From: Desulfarculaceae bacterium | GTDB lineage: Bacteria; Desulfobacterota; Desulfarculia; Desulfarculales; Desulfarculaceae | Assembly (NCBI GenBank): GCA_021737645.1 | Contig: JAIPDO010000004.1 | Span: 1-64,000 of the forward strand | Reading direction: 5' to 3' | DNA: 64,000 nucleotides | In this document: in pieces, positions 28,351-47,558 of the stretch | Numbering within the stretch: the first letter of the stretch is position 1 | How the letters are laid out: each line of letters starts with the position of its first letter | The notes under the pieces: generated by a model | The model's input: the letters and a program-made list of their open reading frames with translations, nothing else | Database searches by the model: none | Told to the model about the DNA's origin: nothing | Program-made: the position numbers and the translations under genes

Positions 28351-28419
28351 TTTAAGGAGGCGGCCGGCGGCAATTTCGGCGCCCGGCCCAAGCGACACCT
28401 TTAGACTGCGGCGGCATTG

Positions 28420-29286: not shown

Positions 29287-29329
29287 CGGTCATGGATATC
29301 ACCGTGCGGGTTGCAATGAGGCTGAAGCA

Positions 29330-30289: not shown

Positions 30290-30291
30290 CC

Positions 30292-31026: not shown

Positions 31027-31029
31027 GCC

Positions 31030-31767
31030 ATGCTGCAACTAAATGATGTGCACACCTACTACGGCCCCAGCCATGTACTGCACGGCGTGAACATGAGCCT
31101 GGCCAAAGGCGAGGCGGTTTCGCTCATCGGGCGCAACGGGGCGGGCAAGACCACCCTCATGCGCTCGGTCATGCAACTCACCCCGCCCCGCAGCGGCTCC
31201 ATCCTGGTAAACGACGAGGTTGAGCTGACCAAGCTCAAACCCCACGGCGTGTTCCGTCACGGAGTGCGCCTGTGCCCCCAGGGGCGCGGGGTGTTCCCCA
31301 AGCTCACAGTGGAGGAAAATCTGCGCTTGGCCCTGGTGGCCCAGCGGGGCCAGGACGCCAATGTCCAGATACAAAAGGCCTATGACCGCTTCTCCATGCT
31401 GGGGGAAAAGCGCCATCAAAAGGTGCGGGGCCTCAGCGGCGGGCAACGGCAGCTATTGGCCATCGCCCGGGCCCTGTTGGGCGACACCTCCATATTGCTC
31501 ATGGACGAGCCCAGCGAGGGCCTGGCCCCCTTGGTGGTGCAGGAGCTCAGAGACCTGATCCTGGACATCAAAACCACGGGCATCACCATCCTGTTGTCCG
31601 AGCAAAACGTGAAGATGGCCTTAAGCGCCTGCGACCGGCACTACATCCTGGAAAAGGGCGAGATCCGCTTCAGCGGCACCACCGAAGAGCTGGCCTGCAA
31701 CGAAGACATTTTGATTCAAACCCTGGGCGTGTCCACCTCGGTGGCCGAGTGCGAGGCTCCCGCATAG
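31030..31767 (+). CDS. livF: LivF-type ABC transporter ATPase
   Basis: A 245-residue ATPase with Walker A GRNGAGKTT, signature LSGGQRQLLAIARAL and Walker B ILLMDEPSEGLAPL, the last being characteristic of LivF. It forms the second nucleotide-binding subunit. Translation follows livG closely, with GGGGGT before the ATG. The binding-protein gene follows about 96 bases later. Confidence 0.92.
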   Translation: MLQLNDVHTYYGPSHVLHGVNMSLAKGEAVSLIGRNGAGKTTLMRSVMQLTPPRSGSILVNDEVELTKLKPHGVFRHGVRLCPQGRGVFPKLTVEENLRLALVAQRGQDANVQIQKAYDRFSMLGEKRHQKVRGLSGGQRQLLAIARALLGDTSILLMDEPSEGLAPLVVQELRDLILDIKTTGITILLSEQNVKMALSACDRHYILEKGEIRFSGTTEELACNEDILIQTLGVSTSVAECEAPA

Positions 31768-31863
31768 GAGCGCATCAAAGTATGGCAAATTCCCCCGGAG
31801 CTTTTGCCCTGGCAGGAGGCATCCCCGGGGGCCGATTATTACGCAATTAAAAAGGAGGGTATC

Positions 31864-33141
31864 GTGGACGAAAAGAAAAAAGACGTCACCAGAAGAAGCT
31901 TTCTGAAAAAGTCGGCCACCGTGGCCGGGGCCGCGGCTATCAGCGGCATTGCCGGCAACCTCTTGAGCGGCGCCCCCGCCTATGCCGCCAAGGGCTCGGG
32001 CCCCATCAAAGTCGGGGTGATCCTGCCTTTCTCCAGGGCCTACAAGGTCATCGGGGACCGGGTTGTGGCCGGCCTGGAGCTGGCGCTAAACCAGGCGGGC
32101 GGGGCCTACAAGGGCCGCAAGTTCGAGGTCATCAAGGAAGACTCGGAAATGAAACCCAACGTGGGCCTGACCAAGACCCGCAAGTTGGTGGACAAGGACA
32201 AGGTGGACTTCCTGGTGGGGCCGGTGAGCAGCGCGGTGTGCGTGGCCATGCGCAACTACGCCAATGAGAAAAAGGTCCCCATGATCATCCCCACCGCGGG
32301 CAACGTGGAGCTGGCCGGCAACCTCTACAGCCCCTACGTGTTCCGTTCCTCCATCAGCCACTGGATCTTCGCCCACCCCACGGGCCTGTGGGTCAAGGAC
32401 AACCTGGGCGAAGAGTGCTTTGTGGGCGGCGCCAACTATGCGGCCGGACACCACGAGGTGTGGGCCTTCACCATGGCCTTCCGGGGCAAGGGCGGCAAGA
32501 TCGTGGGCTCGGCCTATCCGCCGCTCAACGAAAAAGACTACGCCCCCTACCTGACCAAGCTGTCCAAGTCCGGCGCACCCGTCTACTTCGGCTGGTTCGC
32601 GGGCAACGACGCGGTGAACTACTGCCGCCAGGCGGCCCAGTTCGGCCTGAACAAAAAGGTCAAGATGACCACCACCGGCTGGTTCTTTGAACGCAACCTG
32701 CTCATGGCCCAAAAGGACGCGGCCCTGGGCTGGCACTGCGGCTTCAACTGGGCCATCACCCTGGACAACCCGGTGAACAAGGAGTTCGTCAAGGCCTACG
32801 ACAAGTTCACCAAAAACGACGCCAACGTGTCGGTGTCCATGAGCTCGGTGCATGGCTACGACGCCGGGCAGATGATCCTCAAGGCGGTGAAAACCACCGG
32901 CGGCGACACCGACTCGGCCAAGATCGTCAAGGCTCTGGAATACATGAAGCTCGACAGCCCGCGCGGTCCGGTGGAGCTGGACGTCAACCACGACTTGGTG
33001 CAGCCCATGTATATTGGCAAGATCGTCAAGAACGGCTCCAGTGTGGAGCCCGACATCATCGCCGACCTGGGCCGTTGGACCACCCCCTACCTGGGCGCCC
33101 GCGGCATCAACAGCGTGGGCCAACCCTTCCTGGTCAAGTAA
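31864..33141 (+). CDS. Tat-exported LivK-type substrate-binding protein
   Basis: A 425-residue periplasmic binding protein of the Leu/Ile/Val family (IKVGVILPFSRAYKVIGDR, TRKLVDKDKVDFLVGP, HGYDAGQMILKAV). The start is the GTG at 31864, preceded by AAGGAGG; an upstream in-frame ATG at 31804 lacks a site. The N-terminus has TRRSFLKK followed by a hydrophobic stretch and an AYA cleavage site near residue 40. It is therefore exported folded through the Tat route, which is unusual for this family in general but common in Desulfobacterota. It delivers the ligand to the LivHMGF channel. The ligand is unknown. Confidence 0.9.
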   Translation: MDEKKKDVTRRSFLKKSATVAGAAAISGIAGNLLSGAPAYAAKGSGPIKVGVILPFSRAYKVIGDRVVAGLELALNQAGGAYKGRKFEVIKEDSEMKPNVGLTKTRKLVDKDKVDFLVGPVSSAVCVAMRNYANEKKVPMIIPTAGNVELAGNLYSPYVFRSSISHWIFAHPTGLWVKDNLGEECFVGGANYAAGHHEVWAFTMAFRGKGGKIVGSAYPPLNEKDYAPYLTKLSKSGAPVYFGWFAGNDAVNYCRQAAQFGLNKKVKMTTTGWFFERNLLMAQKDAALGWHCGFNWAITLDNPVNKEFVKAYDKFTKNDANVSVSMSSVHGYDAGQMILKAVKTTGGDTDSAKIVKALEYMKLDSPRGPVELDVNHDLVQPMYIGKIVKNGSSVEPDIIADLGRWTTPYLGARGINSVGQPFLVK

Positions 33142-33146
33142 CCCCT

Positions 33147-33188
33147 CGCCGCCGCGGTGTCCCGGCCCTGGGCCGGGGCGCCGCGGCG
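33147..33188. repeat. Long GC-rich inverted repeat between the liv operon and the LarA-like gene
   Basis: CGCCGCGG...CCCGGCCC pairs with GGGCCGGG...CCGCGGCG over about 19 base pairs with few mismatches and a tiny loop. No T tract follows, so it is not a standard terminator. It starts just after the binding-protein stop codon and may stabilise or attenuate the transcript. Confidence 0.55.
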
Positions 33189-33256
33189 ACTTCGCGCTCC
33201 TGGACAAGGAACGGACCCGGTGGAGAAAAAATCGCCTGCCCTCCCGGATTTGAGGG

Positions 33257-33298
33257 TTTGGCGCGATCGGCTATTTGATAGTATAAAAATATCAATAG
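33257..33298 (+). promoter_or_regulatory. Promoter and inverted repeat before the LarA-like gene
   Basis: An AT island in GC-rich DNA holds TTTGGC-N16-TAGTAT (33257-33284). Over its -10 region lies an inverted repeat, CTATTTGATA at 33271-33280 against TATCAATAG at 33290-33298, with one bulged base. This is the layout of a repressor-controlled promoter. Confidence 0.45.
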
Positions 33299-33368
33299 CG
33301 GACGCGCTACGCGGCGCCGGTCAAGAAGGCGGGCGCCCGTTGAACCTCAAGAACATGGAGCACAGCAC

Positions 33369-34649
33369 ATGGCCCTAATTAAAGTACCGTATGAAACGGC
33401 CGAGGAACTCGGAGTAGTTCTAGAGCTAGAAGTTCCAGACCAAAACCTGATCACATATGAGGCTCAGGAGCCCCCGGCTCTGGACGATCCCATCGCCACT
33501 CTGCGCCAGGCCCTGGAAAACCCGGTGGGAGGCAAGAAGCTCTCCCAGGTGCTGACCCAGGGCTGCAAGGTTTGCATCATCACCGAAAACCAGTTCCGCG
33601 CCGCCCAGGCCAAGCTTTTCCTGCCCGCCCTGTTGGAAATGGTGGAAGCGGTGGAAGGCAGCGCCAGCATCGCCATCGGCTGCGGCAAGGTGCCCCCCCT
33701 GTCGCCCGAGGAGATCGCCGACAAGCTGGGCCCGGAGATCATGTCCAAGGGCGTGCCGGTTCAGTGCAACGACGTAAGCAACCCCGACAACTACGTGTAC
33801 ATGGGCACCACCTCGGCGGGCACCCCCCTGTGGGTGCTCAAATCGGTGGCCGAGGCCGACGTGGTCATCACCATCAGCACCACCCAGGCCACCCTGTGGG
33901 GCTATGGCGGCTCGGGCATGATAATCCCGGCGGTGTCGGGCAACGACACCATCGAGATCAACCACGTGATGAGCATGGCCCCGGACTGCCTGCCCGGCAA
34001 CAACTACTGCCGCATGCAGCAGGACAAGTACGAGGCCCTGGACATCGTGGGCGTGGATGTGGGCATCAACGTGGTGGTGGCCAACAACTGGGACATCATC
34101 TACGTAAACGCCGGAGACCCGGTGGAGTCGCACATGGCGGCGGTGTCCTTTTATGACGGCATCTATAAGTTCGAACCCGACGAGCAGCCGGACATCGTGA
34201 TCGCCGGCTCCACCGCGCCCACCAACCACCTTTTCTTCCACACCAACTGGGCCATCGTCAACGTCCTGCCCCTGACCCATGACGACAGCAGCATCATTTT
34301 CTGCAGCCCCTGCCCCGGCTACGGCGACTGGCCCGGCTTCGCCCTCATGGACCTGATGCAGGAATACATGCCCGCCACCGAGGAAAACCACGTCAAGGCC
34401 CTTGAGGCCCTGGTCAAGGGCGAGCGGGAGCTGTGGGCCGGATGCATCTGGTATCCCCTGTACCGAGCCCTGATGCATCGCGACGTGCATGTGGTAACCA
34501 TGGAAGAAAACCTGGAAATGGCCAAGGGCGTGGGCCTCAATGTCGGCGCCGATCTGCAGGAAGCCTTTGACAAGGCCATGAAAAAACACGGCCCCGACGC
34601 CAAGGTAGCTTTTGTGCCCTACGGCCGCTACACGGTGTTCCCCAGCTAG
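33369..34649 (+). CDS. LarA-related (DUF2088) protein lacking nickel-pincer ligands
   Basis: A 426-residue protein related to the nickel-pincer lactate racemase LarA (425 residues in Lactiplantibacillus). It keeps the overall length and blocks such as NDVSNPDNYVYMGTTSAGTP and DIIYVNAGD. The LarA residues that hold or act with the pincer cofactor are changed: the GLHRP-type motif reads GCGKVPPLS (104-112), and the PHxxxGYSGGxK block reads ATLWGYGGSGM (174-184), so the cofactor-binding lysine is methionine. No larB, larC or larE is present. It may be a racemase with another mechanism, a 2-hydroxyacid-binding protein or a different enzyme. RBS GGAG precedes the ATG; own promoter and terminator. 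Confidence 0.75.
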   Translation: MALIKVPYETAEELGVVLELEVPDQNLITYEAQEPPALDDPIATLRQALENPVGGKKLSQVLTQGCKVCIITENQFRAAQAKLFLPALLEMVEAVEGSASIAIGCGKVPPLSPEEIADKLGPEIMSKGVPVQCNDVSNPDNYVYMGTTSAGTPLWVLKSVAEADVVITISTTQATLWGYGGSGMIIPAVSGNDTIEINHVMSMAPDCLPGNNYCRMQQDKYEALDIVGVDVGINVVVANNWDIIYVNAGDPVESHMAAVSFYDGIYKFEPDEQPDIVIAGSTAPTNHLFFHTNWAIVNVLPLTHDDSSIIFCSPCPGYGDWPGFALMDLMQEYMPATEENHVKALEALVKGERELWAGCIWYPLYRALMHRDVHVVTMEENLEMAKGVGLNVGADLQEAFDKAMKKHGPDAKVAFVPYGRYTVFPS

Positions 34650-34676
34650 CCAGATCGCTTTTTTTCTAGATATTTC

Positions 34677-34707
34677 GGGCCGTCCCACCAGGGGCGGCCT
34701 TTTTTTA
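34677..34707 (+). terminator. Terminator after the LarA-like gene
   Basis: GGCCGTCCC (34678-34686) pairs with GGGGCGGCC (34691-34699, one wobble) and runs into seven T. Confidence 0.9.
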
Positions 34708-34723
34708 TGCCTCGTCGAGGCAT
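34707..34723. repeat. Perfect inverted repeat ATGCCTCG-T-CGAGGCAT
   Basis: Arms of 8 bp around a single base, directly after the T tract of the preceding terminator and about 80 bases upstream of the GntR gene promoter. It could be an operator or part of a tandem terminator. Confidence 0.45.
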
Positions 34724-34767
34724 CAAATCGTTCCAAAAAACCTACCAAACTATTACAATATTGCTTA

Positions 34768-34819
34768 TTGACCCAAAGGCCGACTCTAACCTAATCTATA
34801 AAAACCTAATATTAGGTTT
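34768..34819 (+). promoter_or_regulatory. GntR-operon promoter with 18-bp perfect palindromic operator
   Basis: TTGACC (34768-34773) and TAATCT (34792-34797) are spaced by 18 bases. At 34802-34819, over the expected transcript start, lies AAACCTAATATTAGGTTT, a perfect 18-bp palindrome. An extra half-site AACCTAAT occurs at 34788-34795, within the -10 region. The geometry fits repression by the GntR/FadR-type regulator encoded immediately downstream. Confidence 0.7.
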
Positions 34820-34897
34820 ATCCTCTAATCACTATATCCGGCGCTTGGTGTGCACCGCTTAAGAACAGGCGACGGCTATAAGGAACGGGATGAGACA

Positions 34898-35599
34898 TTG
34901 ACCGCCAATATATCTTTGGAAAGCGTCAAACAGGGCCGGGTTTCCGACGGCGTTCGGGAACAGATCACCAACCTGATCCTGGCCGGGGAACTGAAAGTGG
35001 GCGACCGTTTGCCCACGGAAAACGAACTGGCCCGGCAGTTGGGGGTTAGCAAGGTGCCGGTGCGCGAGGCCATGATCAGCTTGCAGCAGATGGGCCTCTT
35101 GACCAGCCGGCGGGGGGCCGGAGGTGGGGTGTTCGTCTGTGAGCCCAGCCCCAAGCCGGTGGGCGAGGCGCTCACCCTTATGCTGCGCCTGGGCCAGGCC
35201 AGCATCGCCGACCTGACCCAGGCCCGCCTGATCATAGAGCCCCACGTGGCCCGCCAGGCCGCCCAGTTGGCCACGGCCCAGGACGTGGCCCGCCTGGAAG
35301 AGACCATCATCAAATACCAGGAAGTGGTGGAGCAGGACCAGCCGCGCAGTATCCGCGACCTGGACTTCCACCTGGCCCTGGCCGATGCATGCGGCAACCC
35401 AGTGCTCAATTTGATATCGCGGGCCCTGGTCCCCCTGCTCTACACCAACGTGCGCGGGCGCCGCCTGCCCCCTGAACGCCGCAACCTGGGCATCGAAGGA
35501 CACCGTGAAATATTCGAGGCGGTGCGCCGCAAGAACCCGGAGGCGGCCCAGGAGGCCATGGTCCGCCACGTAACCCAGATGGCCACCTTCTGGAAATAA
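34898..35599 (+). CDS. GntR-family (FadR-type) transcriptional regulator
   Basis: A regulator of about 234 residues. The N-terminal winged helix includes LPTENELARQLGVSKVPVREAMISLQQMGLL, the standard GntR recognition block. The C-terminal FCD-type ligand domain has DLDFHLALADACGN and REIFEAVRRKNPEAAQEAM. FadR-type regulators usually bind an organic acid and release a repressed catabolic operon. The TTG at 34898 gives the usual N-terminus, but its ribosome site is distant; a GTG at 34850 is the alternative start. The gene begins the UbiD/Mo-hydroxylase/TRAP operon, and its promoter contains a perfect palindrome. Confidence 0.88.
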   Translation: MTANISLESVKQGRVSDGVREQITNLILAGELKVGDRLPTENELARQLGVSKVPVREAMISLQQMGLLTSRRGAGGGVFVCEPSPKPVGEALTLMLRLGQASIADLTQARLIIEPHVARQAAQLATAQDVARLEETIIKYQEVVEQDQPRSIRDLDFHLALADACGNPVLNLISRALVPLLYTNVRGRRLPPERRNLGIEGHREIFEAVRRKNPEAAQEAMVRHVTQMATFWK

Positions 35600-35615
35600 G
35601 GAAAGCTTTAACCCA

Positions 35616-37004
35616 ATGGCAATGAATCTTGCATCCTGGTTGGATCGGCTGGCCGCCGAAGCGCCTGAGGAATTGGTGACGGTGCGCCGCCCGGTGGAGC
35701 CCGCCGCCTTTGAAAGCGCCGCGGTGGTGGACGCCCTGGAGCACCAGAAGCGTTACCCGGCGGTGCTCTTCGAGCAGGTGCGCGACCTTGAGGGCCGCCC
35801 CACCGACTGCCGCATCCTCAACAACACCTTTGGCACCTTCAAAAAAATCGCCCTGGCCCTGGGAATGGACACCGACCAGCGCATGCCGATCATGGAGCGC
35901 ATGCTGGAGCTTTCAGGCCGTAGCCTGGAGCCGGTGATCACAGACCCGGCCCAGGCCCCGGTGCGCCATTGGGCCCAGCAAGGCGACGACGTGGACCTCA
36001 CCCGCCTGCCCCTGATCCGCCACACCGAGTTGGACGGCGGGCCCTACCTCACTCCCATCGTGGTGAGCCGCACCCCCCAGGGGCGCTACAACGTCTCCTG
36101 GAACCGCATGCAGTATTTGGACCCCACCCACCTGGCCATTTACATGTCCCCGCGCCACCTGTCGTCGTATTTCGCCGAGGCAGAGGCCGCCGGGCGCGAC
36201 CTGCCCATCGCGGTGGTGCTGGGCCATCACCCGGCCTTCCACCTTACCGGAGCCCTACTCACCCCCCTGGACGCCGACGAATACGCCGTGGCCGGCGCGG
36301 TCATGGGCCAGCCTCTGGAGCTTATCCCTTCGCTGAGCTTCGGCCAGGAGCTTCTGATCCCCGCCCAGGCCGAGCTGGTGTTGGAGGGCCGCATCCTGGC
36401 GGGCAAACGCTGCGTGGAAGGCCCCTTCGGCGAGTTCACCGGCTACGCCGGGCCCCAGCGCCTGTCCTGGGTGGTGGAGATAAGCGCGGTGTACGGCAAA
36501 GCGTGCCCCACGATCATCGACATCTTCCCCTGCTACACCGAGCATATAAACGCCCACCTGCCCATCGAGGCCAGCATCTACCAGCGGGCCAAGCAGGCGG
36601 TGCCCGGCGTGGTCAAGACCTGCTGGGTGGGCTCGGGCGGGCCCTTCAACCTGATCATAAGCCTGACCAAAAAGACCGAGGGCGAGCCCATGCGCGCCGC
36701 CATGGCCGCCATAAGCGCCAGCAACTTCATCAAGCACGTGATCGTGGTGGACGACGACGTGGACCCCGAGGACCTCACCCAGGTGATGTGGGCCTTTTCC
36801 AGCCGGGTGCAGGCCGACCAGGACCTGAGCATCCTCAGAAACCTCCAGGGCCAGGTGTTGGACCCCAGCCTGCGCCACGAGATCAAGACCTCGGGCATGG
36901 TCATCGACGCCACCCGGCCCTTGGACCGCCCCTTCCCCCGCCGGGGAGAGGTGCCCGAACAGTTGCGCCAAAACCTGAACCTCGACGATTATTTGGAGGG
37001 TTGA
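35616..37004 (+). CDS. UbiD-family prenylated-FMN-dependent decarboxylase
   Basis: A 462-residue UbiD-family enzyme. The catalytic Arg-Glu-Glu set is in place: R164 in VSWNRMQ and E268/E273 in EGPFGEF, with the same spacing as R173, E277 and E282 of fungal Fdc1. These enzymes use prenylated FMN, made by UbiX, to decarboxylate or carboxylate aromatic, heteroaromatic or alpha,beta-unsaturated acids. No ubiX is visible in the window. It follows the GntR gene by 16 bases and is coupled to the next gene. Its place in an operon with a carboxylate-type TRAP transporter and a Mo hydroxylase subunit argues for catabolism and not ubiquinone synthesis. Confidence 0.9.
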   Translation: MAMNLASWLDRLAAEAPEELVTVRRPVEPAAFESAAVVDALEHQKRYPAVLFEQVRDLEGRPTDCRILNNTFGTFKKIALALGMDTDQRMPIMERMLELSGRSLEPVITDPAQAPVRHWAQQGDDVDLTRLPLIRHTELDGGPYLTPIVVSRTPQGRYNVSWNRMQYLDPTHLAIYMSPRHLSSYFAEAEAAGRDLPIAVVLGHHPAFHLTGALLTPLDADEYAVAGAVMGQPLELIPSLSFGQELLIPAQAELVLEGRILAGKRCVEGPFGEFTGYAGPQRLSWVVEISAVYGKACPTIIDIFPCYTEHINAHLPIEASIYQRAKQAVPGVVKTCWVGSGGPFNLIISLTKKTEGEPMRAAMAAISASNFIKHVIVVDDDVDPEDLTQVMWAFSSRVQADQDLSILRNLQGQVLDPSLRHEIKTSGMVIDATRPLDRPFPRRGEVPEQLRQNLNLDDYLEG

Positions 37005-37005
37005 G

Positions 37006-37233
37006 ATGGACATCTTCAGCGTAACCTGTCCCTCCTGTGGCCGCGAGTATTACGCGGACATGCTGCTTTACTCCCTGCCCGTAGAGCTGCACTGCCCCTT
37101 TTGCGGTGTGTACTTCTATAAAGAGAACAGCCCCCTGGTGATAACCGGCAGCGCCGGCTCCGCGGCGGTGGCCAAGGTTCCCGGCGGCCTGAAAAAGGAA
37201 ACCATCTATCGCCCAGGCGAGGAGAAAAACTGA
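37006..37233 (+). CDS. Small four-cysteine zinc-ribbon or rubredoxin-like protein
   Basis: A 75-residue protein with CPSCG at residues 8-12 and CPFCG at 30-34, two CxxCG knuckles 18 residues apart. This ligand set binds one Zn or Fe. The spacing is shorter than in rubredoxin (about 29) and near that of zinc ribbons and desulforedoxin. It begins one base after the ubiD stop, with GGAGG in front, and its stop overlaps the Mo-subunit start (TGATG). So strict coupling on both sides suggests stoichiometric production with these enzymes. It may be a small subunit of the decarboxylase, an electron carrier for the Mo subunit, or a structural adaptor. I cannot choose between these. Confidence 0.8.
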   Translation: MDIFSVTCPSCGREYYADMLLYSLPVELHCPFCGVYFYKENSPLVITGSAGSAAVAKVPGGLKKETIYRPGEEKN

Positions 37234-39491
37234 TGGCCGTGGACAGCATCGGCCGCTCAGTGCTCAAACCAGATGCCTGGGACAAGGTGACCGGCAAGGT
37301 CCGCTACGCTGGGGACCATCAGCCCGAGGGCGCCCTGCACTTGGCCGTGGCTCGCTCCCGCGAGCCCCACGCCGAGCTCAGGGGCATCGACACCACCCAA
37401 GCCAAGGCCGCGCCGGGGGTGGTGGGGGTGTGGACCGCCGCCGACATTCCCGGCGAGCTGCTGGTGGGCCCGCGCCTCAAGGATGAGCCGGTGATGTGCT
37501 TTGACAAGGTGCGCCGGGTGGGCGACCCCCTGGCCCTGGTGGCCGCCGAAACCCTGCACGAAGCCCAGGCCGCCGCCGAGCTGATCAAGCTGGACTTGGT
37601 GAGGCTGCCCGGCATCTTCGCCCCCGAAGACTCCCTGGAGCCGGACGCGCCGATTATCAACGGCGAGGGCAACTTGGTGTTCGAGCGCAGCCTGCTCAAG
37701 GGGGAAGGGGCCCTCGCCCTGGAGGGCTGCCCCATCGTCATCGAGCGCACCTACCGTACCCAGATGATGGAGCACGCCTACCTGGAGCCCGAGGCCGGGC
37801 TGTCCTGGTGGGAGGGCGAGGTGCTGGTGGTCAAGCTGCCCACCAAACACGCCCACTTCGAGCAGGGTGAGCTGGGCCGGGTGCTGGGCCTGCCCCCGGA
37901 GCGCCTGCGCATCATCTGCGCCACCATGGGCGGCTACTTCGGGGACAAGCAGTGCCTCTCGCCCGGCTACTACTGCGCCATGGCCACCTATCTCACCGGC
38001 CGCCCGGCGCGCATGACCTACAGCCGCGAGGAGTCCTTCCAGGTAAGCACCAAGCGCCACCCCATGGTGGTAACCATGACCACCGGGGCCACGGCCGATG
38101 GCCGCCTAGTGGCGGTCAAGACCGAGATATTGGCCGACACCGGCTGCTACGCCTCCTACGGCCCCTCCATCATCACCCGGGCGGTGGTGCACTGCGCCGG
38201 GCCCTACGACGTGCCCAACGTTGAGGTGCACGCCCGCCTGGCCTACACCAACAACCCGGTGTGCGGGGCCATGCGCGGCTTCGGGGTACCCCAGGTGGCC
38301 ATCGCCCACGAATGCCAGATGGACTTGGTGGCCGCCGCCTGCGGCATCAGCCCGGCCGAGGTCCGGCGCATCAACTTCCTCACTCCCGGCGCGCACACCG
38401 CCGCCGGTCAAAAACTGGTCGCCTCCGTGGGGATGGGCAAATGCCTGGAACAAATCGTGGAAGCTCAACAAAGTCTGCCCCCCCATCCCCGCGAGAGCGA
38501 CCCTGACTGGCTGGTGGCCTGGGGCATGGGAGCCACCCACTACGGCATAGGCCTCACCGGCCTGCCCAACCCCGGCGTGGCCCGCCTGCTCCTTGGCCCC
38601 GACGGCTCGGTGAGCCTCCGGGTGGGCACCGGCGACGGCGGCCAGGGGGCCTCCACCACCATGGCCATGATCGCGGCCCAGGAACTGGGCCTGGAGCCCA
38701 CCCAGGTGGAGATATTGGCCGGGGACACGGCGGCCTGCCCCAACAGCGGCACCTCCACCGCCAGCCGCCTGACCTACGTGGTGGGTAGCGCGGTAAAGCT
38801 GGCCGGCGCCCAGATGCGCGAGCGCCTGATGCAACTGGCCAAAGAGGCCACGGGCTCCGAAGGCGTGAGTTGGCAAGACGGCTGCCTCAACGTGGACGGC
38901 GAGAGTCTGGATCTGGCCCAGGCGGCGGGGCGTTTTTTGTCCCAGCCCCTGGAGGTGGAGGGCGTGTTCGACCCGCCCACCCACAAGCTGGACCCGGTGA
39001 CCGGCCAGGGCGCGCCCTATGCCACCTACGCCTTCGCGGTGCACGCGGCCCAAGTGGCGGTGGAAAAGCTCACCGGGCGGTTGGAGGTGTTGCGCCTGGT
39101 GGCCTCCCACGACGTGGGCAAGGTGATCCACCCGGTGAACCTGGCCGCCCAGATCCAGGGCGCGGCCATGATGGGCCTGGGCTACGCGCTCAGTGAAGAG
39201 GTGCTCCTGGACAAGGGGCGCATTACCAACCCCCACTTCCTGGACTACAAGCTTCCCCACGCCTGGCCCGCCCCCGAAGTGGTGGTGCGCCTGGTGGAGG
39301 AGCCCGAGCCCACCGGGCCCTACGGGGCCAAGGGGGTGGCCGAGCCCGCCCTGTTGCCCACCGCCCCTGCGGTGCACAACGCGGTGGCCGCCGCCCTGGG
39401 CGAGTACACCTATCACAACCCGGTTTCCACCGAAACGCTTTGGCAGATACTAAACCGCCGGCGGCGGCAGCAAAGGGATGGCAACGCGTGA
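37233..39491 (+). CDS. Xanthine-dehydrogenase-family molybdenum-binding subunit, without partner subunits
   Basis: A 752-residue molybdopterin-binding subunit of the Mo hydroxylase family. Visible motifs are GGYFGDK (canonical GGxFGxK), CGAMRGFGVPQ, VGTGDGGQGASTTMAMIAAQELG and the active-site glutamate E704 in GAKGVAEPA. Such subunits hydroxylate heteroaromatic or aldehyde carbons with water. They normally work with a two-[2Fe-2S] subunit and often a FAD subunit, genes for which are usually adjacent. None is found here; instead there is the 75-residue four-cysteine protein. The gene overlaps its neighbours on both sides (TGATG and GTGA). Partners encoded elsewhere, or an unusual partner, must be assumed. 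Confidence 0.88.
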   Translation: MAVDSIGRSVLKPDAWDKVTGKVRYAGDHQPEGALHLAVARSREPHAELRGIDTTQAKAAPGVVGVWTAADIPGELLVGPRLKDEPVMCFDKVRRVGDPLALVAAETLHEAQAAAELIKLDLVRLPGIFAPEDSLEPDAPIINGEGNLVFERSLLKGEGALALEGCPIVIERTYRTQMMEHAYLEPEAGLSWWEGEVLVVKLPTKHAHFEQGELGRVLGLPPERLRIICATMGGYFGDKQCLSPGYYCAMATYLTGRPARMTYSREESFQVSTKRHPMVVTMTTGATADGRLVAVKTEILADTGCYASYGPSIITRAVVHCAGPYDVPNVEVHARLAYTNNPVCGAMRGFGVPQVAIAHECQMDLVAAACGISPAEVRRINFLTPGAHTAAGQKLVASVGMGKCLEQIVEAQQSLPPHPRESDPDWLVAWGMGATHYGIGLTGLPNPGVARLLLGPDGSVSLRVGTGDGGQGASTTMAMIAAQELGLEPTQVEILAGDTAACPNSGTSTASRLTYVVGSAVKLAGAQMRERLMQLAKEATGSEGVSWQDGCLNVDGESLDLAQAAGRFLSQPLEVEGVFDPPTHKLDPVTGQGAPYATYAFAVHAAQVAVEKLTGRLEVLRLVASHDVGKVIHPVNLAAQIQGAAMMGLGYALSEEVLLDKGRITNPHFLDYKLPHAWPAPEVVVRLVEEPEPTGPYGAKGVAEPALLPTAPAVHNAVAAALGEYTYHNPVSTETLWQILNRRRRQQRDGNA

Positions 39492-41398
39492 GCGAGCAGC
39501 GCAAAAGCTGGCGGGAATATTGGGGTGCCAAAAGCTGGCAGGCCAAATGCGCCACCATGGTGGCCTTGGTGCTGGCGGTGTTTCAGATATACACCGCCCT
39601 GTTCGGCTCCTTTGACGCCATCATTCAGCGGGCGATTCACCTGGGCCTGGGCCTCATCCTGCTGTTCTTGGTGCGCCCCGGCCTGATCCTCAAAAAAGGC
39701 AAGACCGGCCCTTCCTGGCTGGACTGGGTGTTCCTGGCCTTTTCCGGAGCGGCCACGGCCTATCTGATTGTCAATTACGATTGGGTAACCGAGGAGCGCT
39801 TCCCGCTGATCACCAAACTCTCGGCCTGGGAGATGATCCTGGGCATCGGCATGGTGCTCATCGTGCTGGAAGCCACCCGGCGCATGTTCAACAAGGGGCT
39901 GTTCTTCGTGGTGCTGGCCTTTCTCATCTACCCCTTTGTGGGGCCCTATCTATGGGGAGCTTTTCACACCTCGCCGCTGACCTTCAGCGACATGGTGGAC
40001 TTCAACTACCTCTCCCTGGGCGGCATCTTCGGCATTCCCCTGGGGGTGTCGGCCACGGAGATCGCCCTTTTCGTCATCTTCGGCGCGGTGCTTTTGCACA
40101 GCGGGGGGGCCAAGTTGTTCAGCAACCTGGCCACCACCCTCACCGGCAACATGGTGGGCGGCCCGGCCAAGGTGGCGGTGGTGGCCAGCTCGCTCATGGG
40201 CACCATCACCGGCAGCGGCGCGGCCAACGTGGCCACAACCGGGGTGGTGACCATACCCATGATGAAAAAGGCCGGTTACCGCCCCGAGTTCGCCGGGGCG
40301 GTGGAGGCGGTGGCTTCCTGCGGCGGGCAGCTCATGCCCCCGGTCATGGGCGCGGCAGCCTTTGTCATGAGCGCCTTTTCGGGCATCCCCTACTCCACCA
40401 TCATCTACTACGCCCTGTTCCCGGCGGTGCTCTACTTCATCAGCGTGTTCATCACCGTGGACCTGGAGGCCCGCAAGCATCGCCTGCCCGGGCTCAAGGT
40501 GGACATCACCCCCGGCCAGACCATGCGCGACTACGGCCACATGCTCATACCCTTGGGGATGCTGGTCTACATGCTGGTGGGGGGCTACAGCCCCAGCCTG
40601 GCCGGTGGGGTGGGCGTGATCTCGGCCCTGGTGATCTGCCAGTTTCGCGAAACCACCCGCCTAAACCCGGCGGGAATCCTTAACGCCCTGGAGGCGGGTT
40701 GCAAGGGCATGCTCATCGTGACCATATCCACCGCCGCCGCGGGCATCATCGTGGGCAGCGTGGACCTCACCGGCCTGGGCAACCGCCTGGGCACCGTGTT
40801 CGTGGACCTGGCCGGAGGGCACTTGTTGCTGGGCCTGTTCATGGCCATGATCATCGCCTTGGTTCTGGGGGCGGGCATGCCCACCACCCCTGCCTATATC
40901 GTGCAGGTGGCCACGGTTATCCCCGCCCTGATGGCCCTGGGCCTGCCGGCTCATGTGGCCCATTTGTTCGCCTTCTACTTTTCCTGCCTGTCGCTGATAT
41001 CCCCGCCGGTGGCCGCCGCCGCCTTCACCGCGGCGGCCATAGCCGATGCCGACGGGTGGAAAACAGGCTGGGCCGCCACCCGCATAGGCATCGTGGCTTT
41101 TGTGGTGCCCTTCATGTTCGCCTATGAGCAAAGCCTATTATTGGAAGGCCCCATCGGCAAAATGGTCCTGGACATGAGCACCGCCATCCTGGGCGCGGGC
41201 TGCTTCGCGGTGGCCGGGGTGGGCTATCTGCTGGGCAAGCTCAATACCCTTGAGCGCGGCCTGGCCTTTATCATCGGTATTTTATTGATCATGCCGGTAA
41301 AGGCCTACAGTTTGGCCGGGCTGGCCCTGTTGGTCCTGCTGGTTCTTTGGCAGCTTTACCGGAGAAAAAAATCCCCTTTAACCGTTATTCCTCAATAG
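39488..41398 (+). CDS. Fused TRAP transporter permease (4TM-12TM, TAXI type)
   Basis: A 636-residue membrane protein joining the small (DctQ-like) and large (DctM-like) TRAP subunits, as is normal for TAXI-type systems. The large domain contains SSLMGTITGSGAANVATTGVVTIPMMKKAGY and LGAGMPTTPAYI, typical of the family. The start is GTG at 39488, overlapping the previous stop as GTGA and preceded by an AAGGGATGG-type site; the frame itself is open from 39440. It uses a sodium or proton gradient to import a carboxylate brought by the TAXI binding protein encoded next. Probably brings in the substrate of the UbiD/Mo enzymes. Confidence 0.92.
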   Translation: MSEQRKSWREYWGAKSWQAKCATMVALVLAVFQIYTALFGSFDAIIQRAIHLGLGLILLFLVRPGLILKKGKTGPSWLDWVFLAFSGAATAYLIVNYDWVTEERFPLITKLSAWEMILGIGMVLIVLEATRRMFNKGLFFVVLAFLIYPFVGPYLWGAFHTSPLTFSDMVDFNYLSLGGIFGIPLGVSATEIALFVIFGAVLLHSGGAKLFSNLATTLTGNMVGGPAKVAVVASSLMGTITGSGAANVATTGVVTIPMMKKAGYRPEFAGAVEAVASCGGQLMPPVMGAAAFVMSAFSGIPYSTIIYYALFPAVLYFISVFITVDLEARKHRLPGLKVDITPGQTMRDYGHMLIPLGMLVYMLVGGYSPSLAGGVGVISALVICQFRETTRLNPAGILNALEAGCKGMLIVTISTAAAGIIVGSVDLTGLGNRLGTVFVDLAGGHLLLGLFMAMIIALVLGAGMPTTPAYIVQVATVIPALMALGLPAHVAHLFAFYFSCLSLISPPVAAAAFTAAAIADADGWKTGWAATRIGIVAFVVPFMFAYEQSLLLEGPIGKMVLDMSTAILGAGCFAVAGVGYLLGKLNTLERGLAFIIGILLIMPVKAYSLAGLALLVLLVLWQLYRRKKSPLTVIPQ

Positions 41399-41412
41399 TA
41401 AGGAGGCCCGTC

Positions 41413-42387
41413 ATGGCAGCTAAAAAATGGTTGGCGACTTGCCTGGCTTTGAGCTTGCTCCTGGCCATGGGTATATTCAGCTTCGGAGCGCAGAGCGCAG
41501 AGGCCTATGACATCCGTTGGGGCACCGCCCCGGCCGGAGGCGTGTGGCAGGCTTTGGGCACGGCCATGGTGGAAGACACCATAAAGGCCAACCCCAAGCT
41601 CAAAGGCTCCACCATGCCCATCGGCGGGGCGGCCAACGTTATCGCCACCAACGCCGGCAAAATCAACGCCGCTTTCAGTTTTTCCACCACCGCCGCCGAA
41701 GCCTGGCAGGGCACCGAATACTTCAAGAAGCAAGGCAAGCTCACCAACATCCGTGAGCTGGCGGTCATCTTCCCCGAGCCCACTCAGATCGTGGTGCGGG
41801 CCGACTCAGGCATCGACACCATCGCCCAGCTCAAGGGCAAGAAAGTCACTCCCGGCCCCAAGGGCAGCGCCATCGCGGTGGTCTCGCGCTACGTACTGGA
41901 AGCTTACGGCCTGAGCTTCAAGGACATCGACACCCGCTTTTTGAGCTTCGCCGAGGCGGGCAAGCAGTTCATCGACGGCCACATCGACGCCATCTTCTAC
42001 GGCGCCATGGCCTACCCCGCCCCGCCCATCGTCAATGCGGGCAGCCAACGTAAGATCAAGATGCTGCCTCTTTCCAAGGAAGTTATCGCCCAGCTGGTCA
42101 AGAAGCACAAGGGCCTGGAGCCCTACACCCTGCCCAAGGGATGCTACCCGGGCATCGATCAGGAAATGCCCGGCATCATCGCCAACGTGACGGTCATCGC
42201 CAGCAAGGACATGCCCGACGAGGTGGCCTACGCCATCGTCAAGAGCATCGACCAAAACTTCGACCGCTACGGCAAGATGATCAGGGCCATGCGTTTGGGC
42301 AAGCGCCAGGACATGGCCAAGGACGTGGGCATCCCCATGCATCCGGGCGCCATCAAGTACTACAAGGAAAAGGGCTGGATCAAGTAG
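41413..42387 (+). CDS. TAXI-family TRAP substrate-binding protein
   Basis: A 324-residue periplasmic protein with a Sec signal peptide (lysines at 4-5, a hydrophobic run to residue 25, cleavage after AEA near 31). The mature part has IRWGTAPAGGVWQALGTAMVE and INAAFSFSTTAAEAWQG, typical of TAXI proteins. The start is the ATG at 41413 with AAGGAGG in front. It lies 14 bases after the fused permease gene. TAXI ligands known elsewhere include glutamate and other carboxylates; the ligand here is unknown, but the operon suggests an unsaturated or aromatic acid. Confidence 0.92.
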   Translation: MAAKKWLATCLALSLLLAMGIFSFGAQSAEAYDIRWGTAPAGGVWQALGTAMVEDTIKANPKLKGSTMPIGGAANVIATNAGKINAAFSFSTTAAEAWQGTEYFKKQGKLTNIRELAVIFPEPTQIVVRADSGIDTIAQLKGKKVTPGPKGSAIAVVSRYVLEAYGLSFKDIDTRFLSFAEAGKQFIDGHIDAIFYGAMAYPAPPIVNAGSQRKIKMLPLSKEVIAQLVKKHKGLEPYTLPKGCYPGIDQEMPGIIANVTVIASKDMPDEVAYAIVKSIDQNFDRYGKMIRAMRLGKRQDMAKDVGIPMHPGAIKYYKEKGWIK

Positions 42388-42463
42388 CCCTGTATAAGCC
42401 GCACCAAACCGGGGCGGGCCTGGCCGGTCCAGGCCCGCCCCGATCCTTGCAGGGAGAAACACC

Positions 42464-43387
42464 ATGCCAGCCGAGCAAGCGGTACGCCTGAGCTTCACCG
42501 TGGTGGTGGACAACAACGTGGACGTCTTTCTGCCCAGCCAAGGGCCCCTGCACTACCCCCAGCCCGGACCCAAGTCCATGCTGCTGGCCGCCCAGGGGTT
42601 TTCCTCCTGGCTGGAGGTGGAGGGCCCCGGCGGCGAAACCACCCGCATACTCTATGACTTCGGCCGGGGCGGCACCATCCTGCCCCACAACCTTGAGCTG
42701 CTGGGCATCGACCCCACCCAGGCCGACTACCTGGTGCTCAGCCACGGCCACATCGATCACTACGGCGGCCTGTCTTACCTGGCCGCCAAGTACGACCTGC
42801 GCTCTCCTCTGGTCACCCATCCCCGATCCTTTGGCGAACGGGGAGTGCGCCAGGCCGGTGGCGGGGTGGCCGGGCCCTGGCTCCTGGAACAGGAGGAAAC
42901 CGCCACTTGGCTGGGCAATGCTCCTATCCTGGCCGACAAGCCCACACAGTTGGGGCCCGGCCTGTGGGTAAGCGGGGGCATACCCCACCAGAGCGAGCGC
43001 GACGTGCTGTGGCCCGGCGGCCTGCGCCGGGAAGACGGGCAATGGCAGCCCGATGCCCTGGAGGACGATCAGGCCCTGGTGATAAACCTGGCTGGTCGGG
43101 GCTTGGTGGTCATCACCGGCTGCTGCCATGCCGGGGTGTTCAATACCATCGACGCGGCCCGGGCCATCTGCCCCGGAGTGCCCCTGTACGCCCTGGCGGG
43201 CGGGTTGCATCTAAATTTCCTGGACACCGAGCAGCTTGAGGGCGTGGTGTCTGGCCTGGTGGACGAGAATCCGGGCCTGGTGCTGCCCATGCATTGCACC
43301 GGGGCCTTGGCCCAGCAGGTGCTGCGCAACCGCCTGGGCGCGCGTTGCCCTTTCACCACCGTGGGCCTCACCCTGGCCCTGGACTAA
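42464..43387 (+). CDS. Metallo-beta-lactamase-fold hydrolase, MptA/dihydropterin-synthase-like family
   Basis: A 307-residue protein with the metal motif SHGHIDHYGG (near residues 90-99) and TGCCHAGVFNT (near 222). The order and spacing match the family often annotated as 7,8-dihydropterin-6-yl-methyl-4-(beta-D-ribofuranosyl)aminobenzene 5'-phosphate synthase-like, whose members are mostly uncharacterised hydrolases. It is the last gene of the GntR-UbiD-Mo-TRAP operon, 76 bases after the TAXI gene and just before a strong hairpin. It could open a lactone or ring formed by the upstream enzymes. A second member of this family is encoded at the right edge of the window. Confidence 0.82.
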   Translation: MPAEQAVRLSFTVVVDNNVDVFLPSQGPLHYPQPGPKSMLLAAQGFSSWLEVEGPGGETTRILYDFGRGGTILPHNLELLGIDPTQADYLVLSHGHIDHYGGLSYLAAKYDLRSPLVTHPRSFGERGVRQAGGGVAGPWLLEQEETATWLGNAPILADKPTQLGPGLWVSGGIPHQSERDVLWPGGLRREDGQWQPDALEDDQALVINLAGRGLVVITGCCHAGVFNTIDAARAICPGVPLYALAGGLHLNFLDTEQLEGVVSGLVDENPGLVLPMHCTGALAQQVLRNRLGARCPFTTVGLTLALD

Positions 43388-43400
43388 ATGCGACAAAAAC

Positions 43401-43434
43401 GCGCCCGCGGGAGGCACATGCTCCCCGCGGGCGC
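43401..43434. terminator. Strong hairpin between convergent genes
   Basis: GCGCCCGCGGGGAG-type arms (43401-43414 and 43421-43434) pair over 13-14 bp. The downstream T content is modest. It separates the convergent MBL-fold and MaoC-like genes and probably stops both. Confidence 0.7.
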
Positions 43435-43482
43435 TCTTGTCCAAGGCTGATTTGGGCTCTCGCCCAGGCCGCTCAAATACCC

Positions 43483-43908
43483 CTATTCCGGCACCGGCGG
43501 CAACACCACGGCGGTTCCCACCGCCACTTTTTCACCCCTCTGATTGGCAACTTCCACAGACAATACCAGCCTATTCTTATCTTTAATAATCTCTTTTACT
43601 TCAAGTTTTATCGTTAACATATCGTCGATAAATACCGGGAGTATAAACTTTATTTCCTGAGAAAGATAAATCGTTCCAAAGCCTGGAAACTCCGTGCCCA
43701 ATATGCCGCCGATAATGCCGCCGGTGAGCATACCGTGGGCCACTCTTTGGCCGAAACGGGTGCCCCGGGCGAACTCATCATCCAGGTGCAAAGGGTTGGT
43801 GTCCCCGCTGGCCCTGGCGAACAACTCCACCCTTTCCCCGGTAATCACCACATCCTTGCTATACGCTTGCCCTACCTTTAAGTGGTGGATGTCGGTTCCA
43901 GATTCCAA
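43483..43908 (-). CDS. MaoC-like hot-dog hydratase ((R)-enoyl-CoA hydratase type)
   Basis: A hot-dog-fold protein with the MaoC motif FARASGDTNPLHLDDEFARGTRFGQRVAHG, where the Asp and His of the hydratase dyad are visible as D-x4-H in ASGDTNPLH. It adds or removes water from an enoyl-CoA. The frame reaches back to 43998, but the TTG at 43908 has a perfect AGGAGG six bases upstream and gives 141 residues, the family's usual length. It is divergent from the AbfD-type dehydratase gene and could act on the same CoA-thioester pathway. Confidence 0.83.
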   Translation of the reverse strand: MESGTDIHHLKVGQAYSKDVVITGERVELFARASGDTNPLHLDDEFARGTRFGQRVAHGMLTGGIIGGILGTEFPGFGTIYLSQEIKFILPVFIDDMLTIKLEVKEIIKDKNRLVLSVEVANQRGEKVAVGTAVVLPPVPE

Positions 43909-44360
43909 TTCGATCCTCCTGGGGCCGCCGGGGCCGCCATTTGCCCGCATCTTGGGTGGGAGCTTGCTTATTATCGCGGATATCCGGCGCAAGCCCATTC
44001 CCGCAGCCGGTGTTTTGTTCCGTCATTTGAAAAGATACGACCTGGACGTTTTATGGAGCTATTTGGAACTAGCTGCTCGCCAATAAAGTAATCCAAACCA
44101 TCTCGTAAAACCCTAAAAAAACGCTTCGCAAAAGTCAATTGATTGTTGTCCTTTCTTGGCCTCGGGGCTAAGATTGACTCACAAGCAATAAACCGACTAA
44201 TCACCGGTTGGCCCAAGTAGCGGCATGGCGGACAAACCGTTGAAGCCGCTGTCGCGCCGCATAGAGCGCGAGCCGATGTGAATGCCCGGCAAACGCCGCG
44301 CATCATCTGGTACCCAGCCGGTGTGGACCCAGAAAACCAGGGGGGAACCGAGGAGTACTC
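43909..44360. promoter_or_regulatory. Divergent promoter region between the MaoC-like and AbfD-type genes
   Basis: This 452-bp gap has a plus-strand promoter candidate TTGACT-N18-TAATCA at 44174-44203. On the minus strand there is TTGACT-N17-TAGGGT at 44138-44110. The two -35 elements lie about 35 bases apart, so one regulator could control both directions. No gene or RNA is seen in the remainder. Confidence 0.45.
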
Positions 44361-45806
44361 ATGGCTTTGAAGACAGGCGACGAATACCTGAAGTCCGTGG
44401 AGGATCTAAAGCTGGAGGCCCACATGATGGGCCGCAAATCCGGCGACTTGGGAGAGCACGGCCTGGTCAAGCCTTCTCAAAAGGCGGTGGCCTTCACCTA
44501 TGACGCGGCCCACGACCCCGCCACCCGGGAGCTGTTTTGCGTGGAGTCCTCCTTGTGCAAGCAGGAGATCAACCGCTTCACTCACCTGCACCAGAGCACC
44601 GACGACCTGGTGAACAAGGTAAAGATGCAGCGCTACTGCGGCATCAGCACCGCCTGCTGCTTTCAGCGCTGCGTGGGCCTGGACGCGGCCAACGCCATAT
44701 TCAGCACCACCTACGACTGCGACCAGGCCCACGGCACCGACTATCACCAACGCTTCAAGGACTACTGGGCCTGGGTGCAGACCAACGACCTGGTGGTGGA
44801 CGGAGCCATGACCGACCCCAAGGGCGACCGGGGCAAGCGGCCCAAGGATCAGGTGGACCCGGACCTGTTCCTCAGGGTCAAGGAACGGCGCGAGGGCGGC
44901 ATCGTCATCAGCGGGGCCAAACTGCACCAGACCGGCATGCTCAACTCCCACGAGATATTGGTGATGCCCACCCTGACCATGCGGCCGGGCGAAGAGGCCT
45001 GGGCGGTGTGCTGCGCGGTGCCCACCAATGAAAAGGGCGTGCGCTATATCTACGGCCGCCAGGCCAGCGACACCCGCAAGCTGGAAGCCGACCCCCTGGA
45101 CGTGGGCAACAGCTTCGGCGGCCAGGAGGTGATGACCGTCTTCGAGGACGTGTTCGTGCCCAATGAGCGGGTGTTTTTGGACGGCGAGGTGGATTTCTCC
45201 GGCACCCTGGTGGAGCGCTTCGCCTCCTACCACCGCCAGAGCTACGGCGGCTGCAAGGTGGGGGTGGGCGACGCCCTCATCGGAGCCACCGCGCTGATCG
45301 CCCAGATGAACGGAGTGGCAAAGGCCAGCCACATCCGGGAAAAGATCGTGGACATGATCCACCTCAACGAGACCATCTTTTCCTGCGGCATCGCCTGCTC
45401 GGCCATGGGTGCGGCCACTGCCTCGGGCAACTACCTGGTCAACCTCTTGCTTGCCAACGTGTGCAAGCTCAACGTGACCCGCTTCCCCTACGAGCTGGCC
45501 CGTCTGGCCACCGACGTGGCGGGCGGCCTGTTGGGCACCATGCCCTCGGCGGCGGATCTAAACGACCCGGTGACCGGCCCCTATATAAAGAAGTACCTGG
45601 CCGCCAACCCCGACTATCCAGTGTTGGACCGCATGAAGGTGTTGCGCCTTATCGAAAACCTGGTAGTGGGAGCCGGCGCGGTGGGCTACCTGGTGGAGTC
45701 CATGCACGGAGCCGGGCCGCCCACCGCCCAGCGCATCATGATCGGCCGCCAGGCCAACCTGGAGCAAAAGGTGGACCGGGTCAAAAACATGCTGAACATC
45801 GCCTAG
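44361..45806 (+). CDS. abfD: 4-hydroxybutyryl-CoA dehydratase / vinylacetyl-CoA isomerase family enzyme
   Basis: A 481-residue FAD and [4Fe-4S] dehydratase of the AbfD family. All four cluster ligands of the clostridial enzyme (C99, C103, H292, C299) have counterparts at C100 and C104 (CFQRC) and H291 and C298 (HRQSYGGC). This separates it from the related flavin monooxygenases, which lack them. AbfD dehydrates 4-hydroxybutyryl-CoA to crotonyl-CoA through a ketyl radical and isomerises vinylacetyl-CoA. The strict substrate here is unproven. GGGGGAACCGAGGAG-like ribosome site before the ATG. IlvD/Edd follows by 21 bases in the same operon. Confidence 0.87.
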   Translation: MALKTGDEYLKSVEDLKLEAHMMGRKSGDLGEHGLVKPSQKAVAFTYDAAHDPATRELFCVESSLCKQEINRFTHLHQSTDDLVNKVKMQRYCGISTACCFQRCVGLDAANAIFSTTYDCDQAHGTDYHQRFKDYWAWVQTNDLVVDGAMTDPKGDRGKRPKDQVDPDLFLRVKERREGGIVISGAKLHQTGMLNSHEILVMPTLTMRPGEEAWAVCCAVPTNEKGVRYIYGRQASDTRKLEADPLDVGNSFGGQEVMTVFEDVFVPNERVFLDGEVDFSGTLVERFASYHRQSYGGCKVGVGDALIGATALIAQMNGVAKASHIREKIVDMIHLNETIFSCGIACSAMGAATASGNYLVNLLLANVCKLNVTRFPYELARLATDVAGGLLGTMPSAADLNDPVTGPYIKKYLAANPDYPVLDRMKVLRLIENLVVGAGAVGYLVESMHGAGPPTAQRIMIGRQANLEQKVDRVKNMLNIA

Positions 45807-45827
45807 GGCCAGCGGGAGCGACACACT

Positions 45828-47501: not shown

Positions 47502-47523
47502 CGCACGATCTTTAAACACACGA

Positions 47524-47558
47524 CGGCCCCTGCTTCGGCGGGGGCCGCTTATTTTTTT
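47524..47558 (+). terminator. Terminator after the AbfD/IlvD operon
   Basis: CGGCCCC (47524-47530) pairs with GGGGCCG (47541-47547) around a short loop, followed by CTTATTTTTTT. It overlaps the stop of the convergent MFS gene. Confidence 0.88.

Follow-up and report, generated by a model that had tools for sequence, protein, structure and literature searches.

A conserved seven-gene operon of Desulfarculaceae combines a UbiD-family decarboxylase, a TAXI-TRAP transporter and a partnerless molybdenum subunit of the xanthine dehydrogenase family

The first 64,000 nucleotides of contig JAIPDO010000004.1 of a Desulfarculaceae bacterium (the window, G000:C43:1-64000, where G000 is the source genome of 4.05 Mb in 114 contigs) contain a run of seven genes on the + strand, from about 34898 to 43387. 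They encode a GntR family regulator, a UbiD-family decarboxylase, a small four-cysteine protein (Cys4), a molybdenum (Mo) subunit of the xanthine dehydrogenase (XDH) family that is here called MoL, the fused permease and the solute-binding protein of a TAXI-TRAP transporter, and a hydrolase of the MBL fold (Table 1). The run lies where the original prediction had placed it, and the seven same-direction genes show the gaps then listed (16, 1, -1, -4, 14 and 76 bases, with the permease starting at the GTG at 39488). The gene families named at that time are likewise borne out by family models; in the case of TAXI-TRAP, both the solute-binding protein and the fused permease exceed the model cut-offs. 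The TTG start of the GntR gene was picked by eye from relatives, a GTG at 34850 being the alternative, and searches with this gene were run on 34895-35596. The closest solved sequences to the MBL hydrolase are 7dck, 3h3e (Tm1679) and 2p4z, and by the family models none of the seven genes encodes a CoA transferase or ligase.

Table 1. Position of the operon features in the window, and of the second operon on the same contig.
Feature	Position	Strand	Basis or remark
Palindrome, operator-like, AAACCTAATATTAGGTTT	34802..34819	.	18 bp, perfect, 5' of regulator gene
GntR family regulator, FCD type	34898..35599	+	PF00392 and PF07729 over cut-off
UbiD-family prenylated flavin mononucleotide (prFMN) decarboxylase, 462 aa	35616..37004	+	TIGR00148, 269 bits, cut-off 245
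Cys4, 75 aa, two CPxC knuckles, proposed UbiD zinc-ribbon partner	37006..37233	+	Invariant CPxC, UbiD adjacency
MoL, XDH-family molybdenum subunit	37233..39491	+	PF01315, PF02738 and PF20256 all over cut-off
TAXI-TRAP fused permease	39488..41398	+	TIGR02123, 609 bits, cut-off 321
TAXI solute-binding protein	41413..42387	+	TIGR02122, 236 bits, cut-off 84
MBL-fold hydrolase	42464..43387	+	PF00753 over cut-off
Hairpin 3' of last gene, possible terminator	43401..43434	+	Folding energy of 43388-43450
Second operon	G000:C43 about 72.9-80.8 kb (L048)		Same contig, outside window

The seven-gene operon is real, since the gene set, the order and the tight spacing are kept in six genomes. The synteny search suggested along with the original prediction recovered all seven genes, in unchanged order, in G000, G045, G046, G047, G048 and G049, all members of one genus. 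In a set of 63 genomes from the class, those six alone contain MoL orthologs (64-100% identity), with the next match at 44%, and UbiD orthologs (73-100%) are confined to those six and G051, with the next match at 35%. A MoL profile run against 395 genomes of the phylum gave 1435-1607 bits for the four sampled members of the genus and 796 or less for all others. Six other genomes have, at the equivalent position, a GntR ortholog of 54-89% identity. At the level of spacing, Cys4 and MoL overlap by 1 base in all five relatives as well, the gap between UbiD and Cys4 measures 1-3 bases, and the 4-base overlap of MoL and the TRAP permease is kept in 4/5 relatives, G046 having 20 bases with a start that was chosen by hand. 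None of the seven genes reaches a dN/dS of 0.6 in any of the five pairwise comparisons, and the genes that flank the operon vary between genomes.

The palindrome in front of the regulator gene points to a dedicated operator of the operon. With up to three mismatches allowed, its 16-bp core has an expected count of 0.03 in the window, against one observed copy, which is exact. All 18 bp recur exactly in G000, G047 and G048, and 16 bp do so in G045; in these four genomes, which were the ones searched, the exact 16-mer is present in a single copy, always 5' of the operon's GntR gene, which is what suggests a dedicated site. A shared regulon that might have exposed a partner of MoL was sought in the same way and dropped, the exact operator occurring nowhere else in the four genomes. 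When up to three mismatches are allowed, the forward and the reversed control patterns yield 3/3, 5/5, 6/3 and 9/9 matches and are thus equal in three of the four genomes. Regarding the promoter that the original prediction had coupled to the palindrome, the consensus scan listed no sigma-70-like site near 34768, so that the palindrome stands and the single promoter is unproven. The predicted hairpin at the end of the operon is real, with a folding energy of -36.4 kcal/mol (z -4.4) over 43388-43450, but its 3' side shows no clear T-run on the + strand, and the terminator scan reported an overlapping site solely on the - strand (43419-43399). No RNA element reached the Rfam gathering threshold in 28000-48000.

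The original prediction had also considered that the UbiD protein might belong to a housekeeping quinone or menaquinone pathway. Its scores lie far below the cut-offs of both quinone models (164 vs 496 bits for menaquinone, TIGR03701; 106 vs 788 bits for ubiquinone, PRK10922), and therefore it does not class by sequence as a quinone-pathway enzyme. It also stays far below the cut-offs of the VdcC model NF041204 (261.6 bits, cut-off 650) and of the phenylphosphate model. Its top sequences in the PDB are 6h6v (E 5e-66) and 6h6x, followed by 7ae4; according to an excerpt of PMC8988006, 6h6v is PtHmfF and 7ae4 is VdcC. Similarity to the phthaloyl-CoA decarboxylase 8oz5 is weak (E 2e-13). R164, E268 and E273, which we take from their motifs to be the catalytic E-R-E residues, are invariant in 7 orthologs. 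Plasmid-borne relatives gave no hint of the substrate, every one of them being less than 60% identical, either to UbiD (417 records) or to the TAXI protein (414 records). An operon that runs in the carboxylating direction, or that takes an unsaturated aliphatic instead of an aromatic acid, seems unlikely: UbiD reactions are described in excerpted sources as reversible, with acrylic acids also accepted by the family, but the importer within the operon fits acid uptake, and the protein scores far higher against HmfF and VdcC (227 and 155 bits) than against Fdc1 (88 or less).

Cys4 matches no family over cut-off, and both of its CPxC knuckles are invariant in 14 aligned Cys4 proteins. A four-cysteine gene lies directly 3' of UbiD at 12/12 genes from the genus's two UbiD groups (one made up of 7 orthologs of the operon's UbiD, the other of 5 genes) and at 0/18 other UbiD loci of the class. 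This survey covered 30 UbiD loci of 44 places; among the 18, L088 offers only 45 bases downstream and is not judgeable, and L086 has a pattern match upstream that was read as chance. At E 0.001, a 14-row Cys4 profile found matches in 61 of the 395 phylum genomes. Seventeen of the best 18 matches (E 4e-8 or better) adjoin UbiD, a count that is circular in part because the 14 rows were picked beside UbiD and 11 of the 18 are profile rows; six of the remaining seven adjoin UbiD as well, the exception being G253:C69. Weaker matches are mixed, several falling inside longer frames. Ten stretches were fetched for further Cys4 matches, and seven of them carry UbiD beside a four-cysteine protein (the three without are L205, L207 and L210). 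A C-terminal (I/L)Y.P tail is common to the operon's Cys4 and three UbiD clusters outside the genus, whose UbiD is 51-52% identical. Cys4 and UbiD thus form a lasting gene pair. In the excerpted text of PMC8379154, VdcD forms a zinc ribbon in which two CXXC knuckles bind the metal; it associates with VdcC, whose activity depends on it, and also contacts VdcC via a proline-rich tail. By analogy, the most fitting reading of Cys4 is a zinc-ribbon partner like VdcD, which would bind UbiD and activate it. The original prediction had regarded the presence of a tiny four-cysteine protein as part of a novel combination; as a pair, UbiD and a four-cysteine protein are already known in VdcCD. Two further observations concern this module. 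G096 and G253 contain at least five UbiD-Cys4 pairs each, which suggests a broad use of it, and in G253:C69 (L205:1087-3432) a Cys4-like gene has the FAD and iron-sulfur (FeS) genes of a Mo hydroxylase nearby, whereas the 6 kb read there gave no match to UbiD.

A candidate source of the flavin cofactor is found elsewhere on the contig. A flavoprotein-family search of G000 returned two places, UbiX at C43:74036-74539 and a 498-aa frame on C24. The UbiX gene sits in a second operon that consists of TAXI, TRAP fused permease, UbiD, Cys4, MFS, UbiX, RidA and GntR genes. In G048 the first and second operons converge, about 0.2 kb apart, and in G045 the two are separated by about 3.6 kb with IlvD and HpaB-like genes between them.

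Enzymes of the XDH family are normally built from a Mo subunit together with FeS and flavin electron carriers. The original prediction had pointed out the absence of such partners, and this has held over a wider range: the window and the next 50 kb of contig are free of FeS- or FAD-like matches, no FeS domain lies closer than 5 kb to MoL in 6/6 genomes, and none of the 8 MoL loci from these six genomes gave an FeS- or FAD-like match. Among the other Mo subunits, 50/52 loci have such a match in their flank, the remaining two being only about 3.1 kb long. Counts of Mo and FeS subunit domains are 8/7 in G045 (one contig), 6/5 in G049, 9/8 in G046, 6/5 in G047, 7/6 in G048 and 7/7 in G000. It could be that MoL is an ordinary Mo hydroxylase that borrows the FeS and FAD subunits of a paralogous complete enzyme, an explanation to which we give somewhat less than an even chance. 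Each genome offers five to eight FeS proteins, and borrowing is most plausible in G046, in which a complete FeS-FAD-Mo enzyme occupies a convergent neighbouring run ending about 0.1 kb past the operon, with its FeS domain 9.8 kb from MoL. However, 36/38 FeS genes of the six genomes already have another Mo gene as their partner within 5 kb. The exceptions are one FeS gene on the 5.4-kb contig G000:C65, whose Mo gene is cut by the contig end, and one in the fragmented G048, where one Mo and one FeS gene lie on different contigs. The lack of a second exact operator copy in the four genomes searched, able to co-regulate such a partner, also argues against borrowing.

The active site of MoL bears on the same question. 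The top PDB sequence match of the protein is 3hrd_A, a nicotinate dehydrogenase (E 3e-109), and its K205 aligns with Q197 of Rhodobacter capsulatus XDH. This position is K in 6/6 MoL proteins and Q in 43/43 of the nearest relatives, a set that includes near-copies (L007 and L008 are alike, L119 and L121 nearly so); eight distant rows that had been excluded before the 43 were fixed (G057, G043b, G050b, G040, G041, G044, G058 and G053) also carry Q. Over 196 columns conserved in the 43 relatives, MoL shows 22 fixed different residues, as against 1, 3, 2 and 0 in four control clades. K205, H206, Y235, G467, A473, S505, T509 and A703 are taken as shifts within Mo-site motifs. On the other hand, MoL retains features expected of an ordinary hydroxylase: the GQG and RGFG motifs are kept, and E704, presumably the C-terminal catalytic glutamate by its position, is invariant in 6 orthologs. 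In the tree, which was rooted at midpoint for drawing only, MoL forms one group (support 100/100, stem 0.85) that adjoins the 43 relatives (support 99/98). Because the stems of the control clades are shorter, part of the excess of shifts is explained by branch length. Furthermore, the Mo-oxo glutamine is not universal. The aldehyde oxidoreductases 1sij and 1dgj are without it and are working hydroxylases, and therefore a change from Gln to Lys need not alter the chemistry. In excerpts of two studies, Q197 of XDH touches the terminal oxo ligand by hydrogen bonding or electrostatically (PMC10673323), and a Q197A variant leaves Mo-product bonding unchanged (PMC9370002), so that this position alone need not decide the chemistry either. 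The reading of MoL as an ordinary hydroxylase, which the original prediction had adopted, gained support from no test, the partner gene being absent beside MoL and the active site changed. In parallel, nine distant Mo subunits near UbiD genes have Q at this position in seven cases, K in one (G253 L156b) and M in one (G425). An odd Mo subunit at L156:17638-19914 (G253:C112), with Lys at the Mo-oxo Gln position and a changed GQG motif, sits near the UbiD-Cys4-Mo cluster of G253. Recoded stop codons in the relatives of MoL were considered and rejected, given that L117 has a stop only at the match end and L119 and L121 have none.

The loss of partners and the changed Mo site could also mean that MoL is a former enzyme, now degenerate or a structural leftover. 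This is very improbable: MoL is full length with an open frame in all six genomes, its dN/dS against the five relatives is 0.20-0.51, and several cofactor motifs are retained. The lack of an adjacent partner gene together with the altered active site indicates that the chemistry of MoL may be unusual. One form of this would be a stand-alone, redox-neutral Mo enzyme acting on the decarboxylated product by transhydroxylation, hydration or isomerisation. The absence of an adjacent partner in six genomes, in orthologs down to 63% identity, fits this idea, as do the fixed shifts, several of them in Mo-site motifs, under purifying selection; but the long stem accounts for part of those shifts, and we know of no XDH-family example of a redox-neutral stand-alone Mo enzyme. 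We consider it unlikely. In the conversion of gallate to pyrogallol and then phloroglucinol, a decarboxylase is followed by a Mo transhydroxylase of a different Mo family. The more specific proposal, that MoL acts without electron transfer on the UbiD-Cys4 product as the XDH-family counterpart of this route, is still more doubtful. Whatever its reaction, the partnerless, altered Mo subunit is the special feature of the operon. GntR control, TAXI-TRAP and UbiD are ordinary, and Cys4 with UbiD is a known kind in a new form.

Considered as a whole, the operon is probably catabolic and directed at an aromatic or heteroaromatic carboxylate, with decarboxylation by UbiD and Cys4. To judge from the site and the protein family, the GntR/FCD protein would regulate its own operon from the palindrome. 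The TAXI protein and the fused permease would bring in the acid, as is usual for the family, and UbiD may then decarboxylate the free acid with prFMN supplied by a UbiX encoded elsewhere, and Cys4 would serve it as a zinc-ribbon partner, much as VdcD serves VdcC. The decarboxylated product would next meet MoL and the MBL hydrolase; MoL would either oxidise it, using electron carriers borrowed from elsewhere, or carry out a redox-neutral reaction. The ring opening that the original prediction had assigned to the MBL-fold enzyme found support in no test. HmfF and nicotinate dehydrogenase, as the closest solved relatives of UbiD and MoL respectively, weakly favour a heteroaromatic substrate. Several observations weigh against this scheme. 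UbiX is not among the seven operon genes, and no second-group UbiD was found among the UbiD matches of G047 and G049. G050, of the same genus, is devoid of both the UbiD and the MoL orthologs, and in G051 only GntR, UbiD and Cys4 are visible before the sequence ends. Sites related to the palindrome are only imperfect in G049, G046 and G051. With respect to Cys4, the AlphaFold model is weak (mean pLDDT 66) and gave no Foldseek match at E 0.001, and searches of the PDB and NCBIfam up to E 10 reached no VdcD chain or family, so that homology of Cys4 to VdcD by sequence was discarded. Owing to this missing sequence and fold link, a VdcD-like mode of action is an inference and Cys4 is not filed as a VdcD member.

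Comparison with known systems places the operon near several of them. VdcCD/BsdCD (VdcC: PDB 7AE4, 7AE5, 7AE7) also has a UbiD-type subunit followed by a small two-CxxC protein, with catalytic residues kept and UbiX supplied separately. It differs in that the operon's UbiD falls short of the VdcC cut-off (262 vs 650 bits), that Cys4 has no VdcD sequence match and that the operon lacks UbiX and includes an importer and a Mo subunit. The 2,5-furandicarboxylate decarboxylase HmfF is the best PDB match of the operon's UbiD. HmfF works in the 2-furoyl-CoA dehydrogenase route together with an XDH-family Mo enzyme, whereas the operon has Cys4 and is without FeS and FAD partners and a CoA ligase. Nicotinate dehydrogenase, the best match of MoL, has the same three Mo-subunit domains; unlike hydroxylases of that type, MoL has no adjacent FeS or FAD gene, carries Lys for the Mo-oxo Gln and has accumulated its 22 fixed shifts. 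The carboxylate import by TAXI-TRAP that had been predicted has a precedent for an aromatic acid, as TAXI-TRAP genes lie near a UbiD-family decarboxylase gene in o-phthalate catabolism (PMC13040137, in excerpt). That cluster differs from the operon, which contains no CoA transferase or ligase and whose UbiD has little similarity to phthaloyl-CoA decarboxylase. Among the papers listed by the literature searches, judged partly by titles, no published operon that joins UbiD with a Mo hydroxylase and TRAP came up.

Related gene associations are nevertheless present in other genomes of the phylum. Of 20 stretches around UbiD genes, 9 have a match to a Mo-hydroxylase subunit; 19 of the 20 come from one list of UbiD matches, in nine genomes, and one from a separate UbiD search, the count is without a control, and stretches of the same genome are not independent. 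The arrangements include UbiD-Cys4, a RidA-like gene (by eye) and then Mo-FAD-FeS in G180, UbiD-Cys4-TAXI-TRAP in G276, GntR-UbiD-Cys4, an amidohydrolase-like gene (by eye) and then TAXI-TRAP in G355, UbiD-Cys4-Mo in G253, and TAXI-TRAP-UbiD-Cys4 in G096:C66. UbiD-Cys4 has therefore joined TAXI-TRAP and Mo hydroxylases more than once, and what survives of the novelty first attributed to the combination is the partnerless, altered Mo subunit. Two proteins at L153:17008-18817 (G276:C153), near the UbiD-Cys4-TAXI-TRAP genes, look by eye like YqeB- and XdhC-like maturation factors of Mo hydroxylases.

As part of a conserved operon, with no adjacent partner genes and a remodelled Mo site, MoL would test whether the XDH fold can perform chemistry in the absence of the usual electron chain. 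The repeated pairing of Cys4 with UbiD in Desulfobacterota suggests that VdcD-like zinc-ribbon partners extend beyond the described VdcD family. Such partners would bear on the difficulty of obtaining some UbiD enzymes in active form, a problem noted in an excerpt of PMC10865409.

The surroundings of the operon contain further genes. On its 5' side, a LarA-like gene (window 33369-34649) exceeds the cut-off of Pfam Lar_N and stays below all NCBIfam cut-offs; on its 3' side, there are an HpaB-family gene (PF11794, PF03241) and an IlvD dehydratase gene (window 44361-47501). Among the stretches read, LarA and LivJ lie beside the operon only in G000, G045 and G048, and HpaB and IlvD only in G000 and G045.

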